Assembly (NCBI RefSeq): GCF_024171895.1
Contig: NZ_JAMTCQ010000009.1
Location: 1,241,285-1,305,284 of the forward strand
DNA: 64,000 nt
Reading direction: 5' to 3'
Source of the DNA: Prauserella halophila
GTDB lineage: Bacteria; Actinomycetota; Actinomycetes; Mycobacteriales; Pseudonocardiaceae
The notes under the pieces were generated by a model, which ran no database searches, was not told the DNA's origin, and worked only from the letters and a program-made list of their open reading frames with translations. Below are positions 28,047-31,884 of the stretch, piece by piece. Position 1 is the stretch's first letter. Each line of letters begins with the position of its first letter. Position numbers and translations under genes: made by a program.

Positions 28047-28060
28047 TGAAACATGTTGTC
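28047..28060. promoter_or_regulatory. Near-consensus KstR-type operator
   Basis: TGAAACATGTTGTC matches TNNAACNNGTTNNA except for the final A. It shares TGAAACATGTT with the perfect site at 32015-32028. It lies 54 bp upstream of the glycosyltransferase gene, a position suited to repression. Confidence 0.65.
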
Positions 28061-28113
28061 ATCGTGCTCGATGATCAGGGCGGTCGTCCGGCGAACGCGG
28101 GTGAGGTGAGCGG

Positions 28114-29343
28114 ATGCGGATCGCGTTGTTGTCCTACCGGAGCAAGCCGCACTGCGGCGGGCAGGGCGTGTACGTACGGCACCTCAGCCGTGGGCTGGCC
28201 GAGCTCGGGCACGACGTCGAGGTGCTGTCCGGGCAGCCGTATCCGGATCTCGACGATCCGGTCCGGCTCACGCCGGTGCCGAGCCTCGACCTGTACCGCG
28301 AGCCGGATCCGTTCCGCACCCCGCGGCTCGGCGAGTACCGCGACGCGATCGACCTGCTCGAGACCGGCGCCATGTGGACGGCCGGGTTCCCCGAGCCGCT
28401 GACGTTCAGCCTGCGCGCTGCGCGGTTGCTCCGGGACCGGGCGGCCGACTTCGATGTCGTGCACGACAACCAGTGCCTCGGCTACGGCCTGCTCGGCCTG
28501 CAGCGCGCGGGTCTGCCCCTGGTGGCGACGGTGCACCATCCGATCACCCGCGACCGGATCGCCGACCTGGCCGCGGCGCCGTGGCGGCGCAGGCTCGCGG
28601 TCCGCCGCTGGTACGGCTTCGTGACGATGCAGGCGCGGGTGGCCCGGCGGCTTCCGCGGTTGATCACCGTGTCGCAGGCGTCGGCGGGCGACATCGCCGA
28701 GGATTTCCGGGTGCCGGACGAGCGGCTCACGACGATCCCGCTCGGCGTCGACACGGAGCTGTTCCGCCCGGCCCGGGATCGGGTGCCGGGGCGCATCGTG
28801 GCCGTGGCCAGTGCCGACGTGCCGTTGAAAGGCGTCCGCCACCTGCTCGAGTCGGTGGCGAAGCTCCGGGCGGAACGGGACGTGGAGCTGGTGCTGGTCA
28901 GCAAGCTCGCCGAGGACGGGCCGACCAGGCGGCTCATCGACGAACTGGCGATCGGTGACGTCGTGCGCGCGGTGCACGGACTGGCCGATGACGAGCTGGC
29001 CGGTCTGCTGGCCTCCGCGGAGGTGGCCTGCGTGCCGTCGCTCTACGAGGGATTCTCGCTGCCGACGGTCGAGGCGATGGCGTGTGGCACGCCCCTGGTG
29101 GTGAGCCGCGCGGGCGCGCTGCCGGAGGTGGTGGGCGACTGCGCCCGGCTGGTGCCACCCGGCGACACCGAGGCGCTGACGCGGGAACTGGCCACGGTGC
29201 TCGACGACCGGGGTCTGCGCGGCCGACTCGGCGAGGCGGGACGGGCGCGGGCCCTCGAACGATACAGCTGGCGATCCGTCGCGGCGTCCACAGTGGATGC
29301 ATACCGCGAGGTGATCGACCGGACACGGCGAAAGGCGGAATAG
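28114..29343 (+). CDS. Glycosyltransferase family 4 protein
   Basis: GT-B fold retaining glycosyltransferase. The N-terminal domain starts MRIALLSYRSK with a glycine-rich loop HCGGQGVYV (13-21). The C-terminal domain contains VPLKGVRHLLESV and the EX7E nucleotide-sugar motif in YEGFSLPTVEAMACGTPLV (Glu-Gly-Phe to Glu-Ala). No signal peptide, so cytoplasmic. It is followed directly by a methyltransferase and a toroid-fold protein, with a KstR-like site upstream. Donor and acceptor are unknown; a lipid or sterol-derived acceptor is only a guess from context. Confidence 0.88.
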   Translation: MRIALLSYRSKPHCGGQGVYVRHLSRGLAELGHDVEVLSGQPYPDLDDPVRLTPVPSLDLYREPDPFRTPRLGEYRDAIDLLETGAMWTAGFPEPLTFSLRAARLLRDRAADFDVVHDNQCLGYGLLGLQRAGLPLVATVHHPITRDRIADLAAAPWRRRLAVRRWYGFVTMQARVARRLPRLITVSQASAGDIAEDFRVPDERLTTIPLGVDTELFRPARDRVPGRIVAVASADVPLKGVRHLLESVAKLRAERDVELVLVSKLAEDGPTRRLIDELAIGDVVRAVHGLADDELAGLLASAEVACVPSLYEGFSLPTVEAMACGTPLVVSRAGALPEVVGDCARLVPPGDTEALTRELATVLDDRGLRGRLGEAGRARALERYSWRSVAASTVDAYREVIDRTRRKAE

Positions 29344-30150
29344 ATGCTGACGGTGGACTTCGACCGCATCGGGGTGGGACCGGATGCGACGGTGATCGAC
29401 GTCGGCTGCGGTGCGGGCAGGCACGCGTTCGAGGCCTACCGGCGGGGCGCCGACGTCGTGGCGTTCGATCAGGACAAGTCCGAGCTCGCCGAGGTCGAGA
29501 CGATGTTCGCCGCGATGTCGGCCGAAGGGCAGGTGCCCGACGGGGCGGCGGCCACCACGGTGGCGGGCGACGCGCTGCGGCTGCCGTTCCCGGACGGGAC
29601 GTTCGACTGCGTGATCGCCTCCGAGATCCTGGAGCACGTTCCCGAGGACGAGCGGGCGATCGCCGAGCTGGTGCGCGTGGCGCGGCCCGGCGGGTCCGTC
29701 GTCGTCACGGTGCCGCGGTGGCTGCCGGAACGCGTGTGCTGGCTGCTCTCGGACGCTTACCACGAGGTCGAGGGCGGGCACGTGCGCATCTACCGGGGCG
29801 ACGAACTGCGCGGCAAGCTGAGCTCCGCCGGGCTGCGGCCCGTCGCCGCCGAGCACGCCCATGCACTGCACGCGCCGTACTGGTGGCTCAAGTGCGCCGT
29901 CGGACCCGACAACGACGACAATCCGCTGGTCAAGGCGTACCACCGGCTGCTGGTGTGGGACATGCTGCGCGCCCCCTGGCCGACGCGCACCGCCGAGCGG
30001 CTGCTCGACCCCGTGCTCGGCAAGAGCCTCGCGCTGTACAGCGTCAAGGACGAGGGCGCGGTCAAGGACGAGGGCGCGGCCGGGGACGAGGCCGCAGCCG
30101 GGGACGGCGGGACCGGTGGTGGGCAGGGGGTCGCCGGTGCCGCGGACTGA
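29344..30150 (+). CDS. Class I SAM-dependent methyltransferase
   Basis: Rossmann-type methyltransferase with SAM motif I VIDVGCGAG (17-25), acidic residue in VAFDQDKSE, motif II FDCVIASEILEHVP and post-motif LVRVARPGGSVVV (Methyltransf_11-like). The ATG follows the glycosyltransferase stop without a gap. The middle region (DAYHEVEGGHVRIYRG, HAPYWWLKC) is characteristic of a group found next to such glycosyltransferases. The C-terminus ends in VKDEG/AAGDE repeats from a short tandem DNA duplication at about 30045-30110. Substrate unknown. Confidence 0.85.
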   Translation: MLTVDFDRIGVGPDATVIDVGCGAGRHAFEAYRRGADVVAFDQDKSELAEVETMFAAMSAEGQVPDGAAATTVAGDALRLPFPDGTFDCVIASEILEHVPEDERAIAELVRVARPGGSVVVTVPRWLPERVCWLLSDAYHEVEGGHVRIYRGDELRGKLSSAGLRPVAAEHAHALHAPYWWLKCAVGPDNDDNPLVKAYHRLLVWDMLRAPWPTRTAERLLDPVLGKSLALYSVKDEGAVKDEGAAGDEAAAGDGGTGGGQGVAGAAD

Positions 30151-31222
30151 CCTGCCCGAGGTCCCCGGCGTCCTGACCGCGTCCGAGATGGCCGCCACGG
30201 CGCGGTCGATCGCCGCGGTGCAGGAGAGTTCCGGTGCCGTTCCGTGGTTTCCCGGCGGGCACACCGACCCGTGGGACCACGTCGAATCCGCCATGGCGCT
30301 GACGGCCTCCGGGCTCCACGACGAGGCTGCCGCCGCCTACGACTGGTGCCGCTGCACCCAGCGCAGCGACGGTTCCTGGCCCGCGAAGCTCGTCGGCGGC
30401 CGCGTCGAGGATCCGGTCACCGACACCAACTTCTGCGCCTACGTGGCTGTCGGCGTGTGGCATCACCTGACCTGCACCGGCGACGACGACTTCGCCCGTC
30501 GTATGTGGCCGGTGGTGCGCGCCGCCGTCGACCTCGTGCTGGAGGCGCAGGCCGAACGCGGCGAGGTCGCCTGGGCGCGCGGCGCCGGCGGTGTGTGGGC
30601 CGGTGAGGCGTTGCTGTCGGGCTGCGCGAGCATCCATCAGAGCCTGCGATGCGCGCTCGCGCTGGCCGAGTACGTCGAACGGCCGCAGCCGGACTGGGAG
30701 GTCGCGCTGGGCAGGCTCGGCCACGCGCTGCGCGCCCACCCCGAGGCGTTCGCGGACAAGAGCCGTTACTCGATGGACTGGTACTACCCGGTGCTCGGGG
30801 GCGCCGTCCGCGGGCGCGCCGGGCTCGACCGGATCCGCGGGCGCTGGCGGGACTTCGTCGTCGACGGGCTCGGCGCGCGGTGTGTCGACGACCGGCCGTG
30901 GGTCACCGGAGCGGAGACCTGTGAACTCGTGCTCAGTCTCGATGCGCTTGGCGAGGCCGCGCCGGCACGGGAGCTGCTGGCGGCCATGCAGCATCTGCGC
31001 GATCCGGACGGCTCGTACTGGACGGGCCACGTCGTCACCGACGGCAAGCGCTGGCCGGAGGAACGGACGACGTGGACCGGCGCGGCGGTGATCCTGGCAG
31101 CCGATGCGCTGTCGCGCACCACGCCGTCGTCGGCGATCTTCCGCGGCGACGGCCTCCCCGCGGGACTCGCGTCGGTCGGCGCCGGCTGCTGTGACACCTA
31201 TGTGACGGGTGTGCCCGGCTGA
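30137..31222 (+). CDS. Alpha/alpha-toroid protein, prenyltransferase/squalene cyclase-like, without cyclase acid motif
   Basis: 361 aa from a GTG with a GCAGGGGG ribosome site 6 nt upstream, overlapping the methyltransferase by 14 bp. Helical repeats with QxxDGSW-like turns (QRSDGSW at 75-81; LRDPDGSYW near the C-terminus) and aromatic-rich segments suggest the alpha6/alpha6 toroid of squalene-hopene cyclases and protein prenyltransferases. I do not see the DxDD acid of class II cyclases, so cyclase activity is not supported. Databases often label such genes prenyltransferase. It may bind or hydrolyse a glycan or terpenoid; function unknown. Confidence 0.7.
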
Positions 31223-31884
31223 CCGGCGATCCGCCGCAGCAGCCGCATCGAACCGGTCGCCGCGTGTTCGGCGAACTGTCCGGAGGCCAGCGCCCGGCGG
31301 AAGATGTGGAACGGCGGGCGGCCGCCGTCGCGCGGGTCGGGGAACACGTCGTGGATGGCCAGCAGTCCGCCAGGCCGCACCCAGGGCGCCCAGCCGGCGA
31401 GGTCTGCCTCGGCGGCCTCCTCGGTGTGGCCGCCGTCGATGAACACCAGGTCGGCGGGGGTGCGCCACAGCGCCGCGACCTCCGGCGAGCGGCCGACGAC
31501 GGCGACGACGGTCTCCTCCAGTCCGGCGCTCGCGATGGTGCGGCGGAAGGCGCCCAGCGTGTCGAGCCTGCCGGTGTGCGGGTCGACGAGGCCGGGGTCG
31601 TGGTACTCCCAACCGGGCTGGTGTTCCTCGGAGCCGCGGTGGTGATCGACGGTCACGACCCGTGCGCCCGTCTCCCGCGCGGCCGCGCCCAGGAACACTG
31701 TCGACTTGCCGCAGTAGCTGCCGATCTCCACGGCCACGGGGGCCTCGCCGGCGTCGCCGTGCCGGGTGGTCGCCGTCTCGTGCAGTGCGTCGTAGAGGAC
31801 GAGGCCCTCGTCGGTCGGCATGAAGCCGGGGGCGTCGATCGCGGCGGTCAGCAGCTCGGGTGGCATGGCCGTGGCAGCGGGCAT
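31198..31884 (-). CDS. Class I SAM-dependent methyltransferase (Methyltransf_24-like)
   Basis: 228 aa from the ATG at 31884. Motif I reads [17 protein letters not shown], motif [15 protein letters not shown] and the acidic turn [13 protein letters not shown], typical of the family that includes glycan and macrolide O-methyltransferases. [20 protein letters not shown] is a distinctive loop and may bind a metal. The frame is open for 46 more codons upstream but without homology, and the 31884 start has a leaderless-type promoter. Its 3' end overlaps the toroid gene by 25 bp, so the two converge. It may act in the same pathway as the genes at 28.1-31.2 kb. Confidence 0.83.

Follow-up and report, generated by a model that had tools for sequence, protein, structure and literature searches.

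A predicted methylmannose polysaccharide gene cluster lies among steroid genes and KstR-like operators in Prauserella halophila

Four adjacent genes in a 64,000-nucleotide stretch of Prauserella halophila DNA (contig NZ_JAMTCQ010000009.1, 71.2% G+C; hereafter the window) almost certainly correspond, as judged from their predicted products, to the published biosynthesis cluster for methylmannose polysaccharide (MMP) and not to a new system, as a first-pass annotation had suggested. MMP, which occurs in the cytoplasm as a chain of 11-14 alpha-1,4-linked 3-O-methylmannoses, has been proposed to hold acyl-coenzyme A (acyl-CoA) molecules (PMC9883506). The four genes, coding-like open reading frames at 28114-31884, reside in a steroid island, with an mce4-type uptake operon before them and genes for a flavin adenine dinucleotide (FAD)-binding protein, a ferredoxin-like protein and KstD after them. 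Judging from operator-like sites and a recurrent gene order, control of the cluster by KstR is quite likely in the window's genus, and recruitment of the MMP cluster to the KstR (cholesterol) regulon is probable for this lineage. An MMP set among steroid genes behind predicted KstR sites, here and in many relatives, appears to be an unreported setting. We found no link of MMP to cholesterol, steroid or sterol in the open-access literature, which excludes most subscription papers and was searched through titles and the beginnings of abstracts, and none to KstR among the 20 of 187 papers listed; the four MMP locus tags of M. smegmatis occurred in the searched literature only in PMC9883506. The four genes, with names assigned by homology, and the candidate operators in the window are as follows.

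28114-29343, + strand: manT, GDP-mannose-dependent alpha-(1->4)-mannosyltransferase (GT4); PDB 7qsg, E 1.9e-172, residues 1-404
29344-30150, + strand: pmeT3, putative 3-O-methyltransferase (class I, S-adenosylmethionine-dependent); PF08241, E 3.4e-21
30137-31222, + strand: mmpH, MMP alpha-(1->4)-endomannosidase, (alpha/alpha)6 toroid; PDB 7qsj, E 5.6e-155, residues 6-350
31198-31884, - strand: meT1, MMP 1-O-methyltransferase (Methyltransf_24-type); PDB 6g7d, E 1.1e-78; PF13578, E 4.2e-27; position as in the published cluster
28047-28060, no strand: KstR-like operator before manT, TGAAACATGTTGTC, score 15.9, 67 bp before the start codon
32015-32028, no strand: KstR-like operator between meT1 (-) and the FAD/ferredoxin-like/kstD genes (+), TGAAACATGTTTCA, score 21.8
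13080-13093, no strand: KstR-like operator between acyl-CoA dehydrogenase genes and an alcohol dehydrogenase-like gene at 13316, TAGAACAGGTTCTA, score 24.0

The assignment as the known MMP cluster follows from the matches to solved enzymes, the retained active-site residues and the position of pmeT3. A sequence search of the PDB matched three of the products to solved M. hassiacum enzymes with the E values listed above. The 6g7d match spans residues 14-227 of the meT1 product, and this entry, labeled only "Methyltransferase domain protein", we take to be MeT1. The other two entries are ManT (7QSG) and MmpH (7QSJ) of M. hassiacum, although the PDB label of the former reads D-inositol 3-phosphate glycosyltransferase (PMC9883506). 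The GT-B active site of ManT is kept (Gly15, His142, Lys240, Glu313, and Glu321 in M. hassiacum numbering, the last three shifted by -1 in the window), as are Asp47, Asp50, and Glu262 of MmpH, whose acid/base motifs DPWD and GAETCE are present. For pMeT3, solved relatives are distant (best E 8.9e-13), and the activity has only been proposed (PMC9883506); its gene is flanked by manT and mmpH, a position it shares with its counterparts in mycobacterial loci, in 42 of which the identity is 55-69%. The first-pass annotation had given the gene coordinates correctly, together with the 0-bp gap between manT and pmeT3, the 14-bp overlap between pmeT3 and mmpH and the second methyltransferase gene convergent to them; meT1 and mmpH overlap by 25 bp. 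It was also right in placing this glycosylation and methylation set outside known cholesterol degradation but within a steroid island: none of the four proteins had a steroid-catabolic family over the cut-off among the Pfam and NCBIfam matches listed, and the setting recurs in relatives.

The gene order is widely kept. We searched 150 genomes of the window's family, Pseudonocardiaceae, for the toroid protein and found a match in 48, of which 34 showed at least 65% identity and 14 showed 45-53%. A scan of named genomes contributed the best 80 loci of at least 586 stretches encoding a relative. In 98 of 110 toroid loci (the window and the best matches, with some genomes represented twice, hence not a random sample), the set is complete, with the order and orientation that the first-pass annotation had described. 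The other 12 comprise seven without a MeT1 match, three without a ManT match and two with MeT1 elsewhere; among those lacking ManT, one (L083) has a run of N at that place followed by a ManT-like end, and in another (L089) the record starts inside pmeT3. Within the family, the presence of the cluster is associated with that of KstR (27/81 versus 7/69; naive p 8e-4, kinship uncorrected).

KstR-like sites were scored with a matrix built from the 47 mycobacterial motif sites in Table 3 of PMC1995591, which themselves score 13.5-26.6. These are motif instances, some of which were tested in that work, where Rv0223c failed to bind. The matrix was used in place of an earlier consensus scan allowing up to one mismatch, which had marked 132 of 1,218 other genes, approximately the chance level. 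Only the three sites listed above score at least 14 in the 64 kb, and random sequence of 70% G+C gives 0.002 per kb. The KstR-like site that the first-pass annotation had placed before the set is the one at 28047, where TGAAACATGTTGTC differs by a single mismatch from the core TnnAACnnGTTnnA. The five same-genus relatives with the cluster have only two sites of at least 14 in approximately 20 kb, one before manT and one between meT1 and the FAD gene; the site at 32015 is identical in all five. In the aligned relatives (L115-L119), the sequence before manT reads TGAAACAyGTTCTA, with scores of 23.5-24.9 at positions -60 to -67. The window's genome encodes KstR (332.5 bits, cut-off 280; G000:C1:105160).

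Across the family, manT has a site scoring at least 14 at a distance of up to 300 bp in 25 of the 27 cluster-bearing genomes with KstR over the cut-off, and in none of the seven without. KstR and site agree in 32 of 34 rows, for which a naive Fisher test gives p 7e-6 on 34 related genomes. Dinucleotide shuffles of the upstream regions of 33 relatives reached 14 in only 7 of 3,300 cases. Of the 14 named family loci, several from genomes already counted, 12 have a readable ManT, and 10 of these showed the site. Outside the family, 64 of the 66 other named loci had 300 bp upstream and were counted (L089 and L097 were dropped; genus names follow the opening word of each record title), and the site occurred in four of five Rhodococcus loci and none of the remaining 59. 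A candidate scoring 15.1, AGGAACCTGTTCCA, which in L094, L140, L141, and L145 precedes manT by more than 300 bp, lies in or at the edge of an upstream open reading frame and was rejected; it is outside the 300-bp count. No kstD over the cut-off was found in the seven KstR-less genomes (the search covered 30 of the 34 cluster genomes and G149), and it is also missing in three KstR-bearing genomes (G112, G145, and G137).

The upstream regions give the strongest indication that the site acts on manT. The site aligns upstream of Rhodococcus manT while both flanks vary, and in the window's genus the sequences align between approximately the site and the start codon but no longer do so farther upstream. 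For the window's genus, for L124, L133, and L122, and for Rhodococcus L077, L093, and L096, we saw no steroid gene in divergent orientation to manT. The genes upstream of manT are instead on the same strand, namely mce-associated genes in the window's genus, a ferredoxin-like gene 106-109 bp away in L124 and L133, hsaB in L122, whose upstream region is nearly identical to that of L123, and a TetR gene more than 700 bp upstream in the three Rhodococcus loci. A long antisense frame before manT in L035/L118 overlaps a same-strand frame and was taken, by judgement, as a non-gene.

The steroid-gene setting itself recurs. Surroundings of up to 20 kb were retrieved for 33 family loci with at least 65% identity (the window being number 34) and for 7 of the 14 divergent loci, and steroid genes that passed set identity limits were counted as confident; 23 of the 33 relatives have such genes near the MMP locus. 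The arrangement differs between them. The mce4 genes lie upstream in L115-L119 (with kstD beyond), L130, L131, and the named Saccharomonospora loci L083 and L084. In the Saccharopolyspora type, kstR is divergent, and chsE-chsH-ltp2 follow meT1 in many loci; L132 has chsE-ltp2 and no kstR, and in L122 hsaA-hsaD-hsaC-hsaB, four NCBIfam equivalogs over the cut-off, are located directly upstream on the same strand. The KstR of L109 passes the model (328 bits, cut-off 280), and the P450 of Nocardia L098 is CYP125, with a steroid C26-monooxygenase as its best PDB match (1.5e-177). Many of the neighbor names (chsE, chsH, ltp2, ipdAB, etc.) derive from gene order, sequence resemblance and subfamily matches and not from equivalogs over the cut-off. 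The IpdE2 family NF050027 was uninformative as a marker of steroid breakdown, with none of the 150 genomes over the cut-off. Of the 66 other named loci, mostly from Mycobacterium and Nocardia, six have steroid genes within approximately 8 kb.

By homology, ManT would add alpha-1,4-mannoses to short 3-O-methylmannosides, pMeT3 would presumably methylate O-3, MeT1 would cap O-1, and MmpH would cut mature MMP into primers for new chains, in line with the recycling role given to MmpH in PMC9883506. KstR is predicted to repress manT-pmeT3-mmpH via the site at 28047 and meT1 via the shared site at 32015, and steroid acid or CoA effectors would release it; the published effectors of KstR include steroid acids and CoA thioesters (PMC9782250). 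MMP made during growth on sterols could then wrap acyl-CoAs, either fatty or steroid thioesters, increasing their solubility and easing product inhibition. Acyl-CoA buffering as the reason for the recruitment is a tentative suggestion. More speculative still, and on balance doubtful, is its full form, in which MMP would be a sterol-induced, KstR-controlled cytosolic carrier of steroid-CoA and fatty acyl-CoA allowing sterol breakdown without poisoning of the CoA pool.

A narrower form of the proposed recruitment would have KstR run MMP synthesis for general lipid balance, easing the output of fatty acid synthase under the flood of sterol-derived propionyl- and acetyl-CoA and leaving steroid-CoA thioesters untouched. 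We rate this a serious possibility that falls somewhat short of an even chance, one that overlaps with the favored explanation. The sequestration of newly made fatty acyl-CoAs by MMP has already been proposed in print (PMC9883506), and the evidence from the sites is the same as for the steroid-CoA version, from which nothing in the data separates it.

According to another explanation, an ordinary MMP cluster sits in the island by inheritance of gene order, the KstR sites serve its neighbors (kstR, chsE, or the FAD/kstD genes), and MMP is independent of sterols. Several observations are in its favor and weigh against recruitment. The site before the window's manT, whose score is within the range of the training sites, is degenerate: its right half has changed from GTTCTA in the relatives to GTTGTC, and because of this partial decay, KstR control is predicted with lower confidence in the window's species than in the genus as a whole. 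In the window, meT1 and a divergent gene have their site in common, and meT1 sites lie between divergent genes in the Saccharopolyspora type as well. There, the manT site falls within the promoter region of the divergent kstR and thus may be kstR's own, in which case its decay after the loss of kstR would be expected whatever its role for manT; L140, L141, and L143 keep a broken copy of the site at -55.

The distribution of sites and steroid genes adds further points of this kind. Ten of the 33 relatives have no confident steroid gene nearby (L120, L124, L129, L133, L134, L140, L141, L143, L145, and L147), including three that carry both KstR and the site (L124, L129, and L133); in L124 and L133, P450 and FadD17 matches reach just 47-51%. 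The two KstR-bearing family genomes that miss the site are L130 (8.7) and L131 (10.0). No site was found before manT in Mycobacterium (0/31), Mycolicibacterium (0/8), Nocardia (0/12), Williamsia (0/4), or single loci of other genera (0/4). A missing site does not mean a missing KstR, since KstR was over the cut-off in 17 of the 18 non-family genomes in which it was looked for, including all 12 from these four genera, which keep MMP nonetheless. Rhodococcus L077 has the site and no KstR over the cut-off, and Rhodococcus L090 has KstR and ipdAB nearby and no site. On a tree of 111 rows (a quick tree with long-branch warnings, leaving out six duplicates and four incomplete loci), the state of the site needs six changes. 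Within the family, only two phylogenetically independent contrasts between KstR and site exist; each goes the way expected, but with two the sign test (p 0.5) cannot reach significance. The first-pass annotation had regarded an equally frequent occurrence of the set away from mce4/kst genes with no KstR site as evidence against its idea. The Mycobacterium, Nocardia, and Williamsia loci examined are of that kind, having no site and lying mostly away from such genes, whereas in the window's family and Rhodococcus most loci examined have the site.

In cholesterol RNA-seq of S. hirsuta, kstR and mce4 were uninduced at 24 h, and no such gene block was seen in the table of 28 cholesterol-induced genes, onto which the MMP locus tags are unmapped (PMC9782250). 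The sections searched of the S. hirsuta papers (PMC9782250, PMC8708139) mention neither a GT4 enzyme nor MMP, apart from one methyltransferase, F1721_27890, a tag outside the named steroid clusters. Term searches in the main texts of the cholesterol transcriptomes of M. smegmatis (PMC4881515) and Mycobacterium sp. VKM Ac-1817D (PMC6593523) were empty. The phenotype described for an MMP-negative mutant is a cold-growth defect, and growth on sterol is unmentioned in the main text of that study (PMC9883506).

Against inheritance of gene order alone stand the loci described above (the window's genus, L124, L133, L122, and Rhodococcus L077, L093, and L096) in which manT and the first named gene upstream of it share a strand and no steroid gene was seen to diverge, as well as the several different places that the cluster occupies among steroid genes. 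We consider this explanation unlikely and retain recruitment into the KstR regulon as the favored one.

The synthesis of sterol glycosides or an envelope glycolipid, the product suggested by the first-pass annotation, is very improbable: it draws only on the gene classes (GT4, methyltransferases) beside steroid genes, whereas the matches to MMP enzymes, which run over nearly the full length and retain the active sites, led us to reject it, the cluster is widespread away from steroid genes, and its product is a cytoplasmic polymethylated polysaccharide. That the toroid protein is a relative of terpene/squalene cyclases or prenyltransferases can practically be dismissed, since against one QRSDGSW motif and an SQHop_cyclase_N match at E 0.17 (11.4 bits, cut-off 26.2) there are the MmpH match at E 5.6e-155 with its acid/base residues kept and weak, below-cut-off NCBIfam matches to GH15-type glucoamylases; the QxxDGSW "repeats" of the first-pass annotation were generously named, the motif being exact once (QRSDGSW) and weakened once (DPDGSYW). 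The first-pass annotation also described the cyclase acid motif as absent, although no search aimed at it was made here.

The role of polymethylated polysaccharides is still called proposed (PMC9883506). The conservation of the operator and the recurrent location of the cluster amid steroid genes supply a condition, growth on sterol, and a regulator, KstR, with which to probe it. If recruitment is correct, the KstR regulon would gain a polysaccharide branch in several genera, and if the carrier function were also true, a long-known polymer would receive a physiological role.

The remaining features of the steroid island in the window are given below.

17686-27977, + strand: mce4-type uptake operon and associated genes, assigned from gene order with two of its proteins scanned (TIGR00996, 196.5 bits, cut-off 140.5; TIGR00056, 154.9 bits, under the cut-off of 212.2)
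32077-33681, + strand: FAD-binding protein of a steroid-dehydrogenase-like class; NF005511, 740 bits, cut-off 466
33678-33872, + strand: small ferredoxin-like protein, an open frame named by the look of its sequence, with no NCBIfam match
33869-35626, + strand: kstD, 3-oxosteroid 1-dehydrogenase; NF005882, 917 bits, cut-off 788
8944-13052, - strand: FadD17-like acyl-CoA ligase (NF005897, 694 bits, under the cut-off of 850) and two acyl-CoA dehydrogenases (families all under the cut-off)

The "4" in the mce4 naming is inferred from the steroid neighborhood.

Several observations from other loci stand beside these results. One genome of the window's genus (G149, 91% complete) has KstR and kstD and no MmpH match, and the MMP cluster may be absent from part of the genus. 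A locus filed under a metagenome-assembled genome of Acidobacteria (L111) carries an MMP cluster placed beside mycobacterial ones in the tree, which is probably a binning error. Sixteen mycobacterial loci have a small gene (family C16; SnoaL-like by eye, with no NCBIfam match; e.g., L049:13395-13895) located 5-8 kb from the mmpH start on its downstream side. A strong KstR-like site precedes this gene by 22-23 bp and, by position alone, resembles the published MSMEG_6475 site (PMC1995591).

All seven divergent triads examined (L148-L154; e.g., L149:5645-10883 and L150:5089-10856) encode ManT-, pMeT3-, and MmpH-like proteins with 45-61% identity to those of the window; Asp50 is replaced by Asn, Glu262 is kept, and there is no MeT1 match. 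Directly upstream, all seven encode a member of a single protein family. In L149 and L150 it carries a caspase domain over the cut-off together with AAA and TPR domains, L150 also has FHA, and L153 gave a partial match only. Beside the caspase protein of L149 there is a weak, under-cut-off match to an alpha/beta-hydrolase, and PADLOC gave only weak matches, for two of six proteins. These triads resemble the predicted conflict modules of PMC7159879 and may represent a new use of an MMP-like triad.

Among known systems, the closest is the MMP cluster of nontuberculous mycobacteria (M. hassiacum MHAS_04402-04405, MSMEG_6481-6484; PMC9883506), which shares all four genes, the order and orientation seen in mycobacterial loci, the catalytic residues of ManT and MmpH and near-full-length homology. 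The window's set differs in its setting, with mce4 on one side, kstD on the other and KstR-like sites nearby. The terms cholesterol, sterol, mce, and KstR do not occur in the main text of PMC9883506. With the KstR regulon of M. smegmatis and M. tuberculosis, the window shares the operator palindrome, and its genome also has KstR; the motif table of PMC1995591 contains none of MSMEG_6481-6484, the nearest entry being MSMEG_6475. MmpH has the fold class of the GH15- and GH125-type (alpha/alpha)6 glycosidases, with which it is compared in PMC9883506, but the window's toroid falls below the cut-offs of those families and, unlike theirs, the substrate of MmpH is a methylated alpha-1,4-mannan. The pathway for 6-O-methylglucose lipopolysaccharide (MGLP) also uses a GT4 enzyme and methyltransferases. 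MGLP is likewise a polymethylated, acyl-CoA-binding polysaccharide (PMC9883506), but its sugar and enzymes differ from those of MMP.

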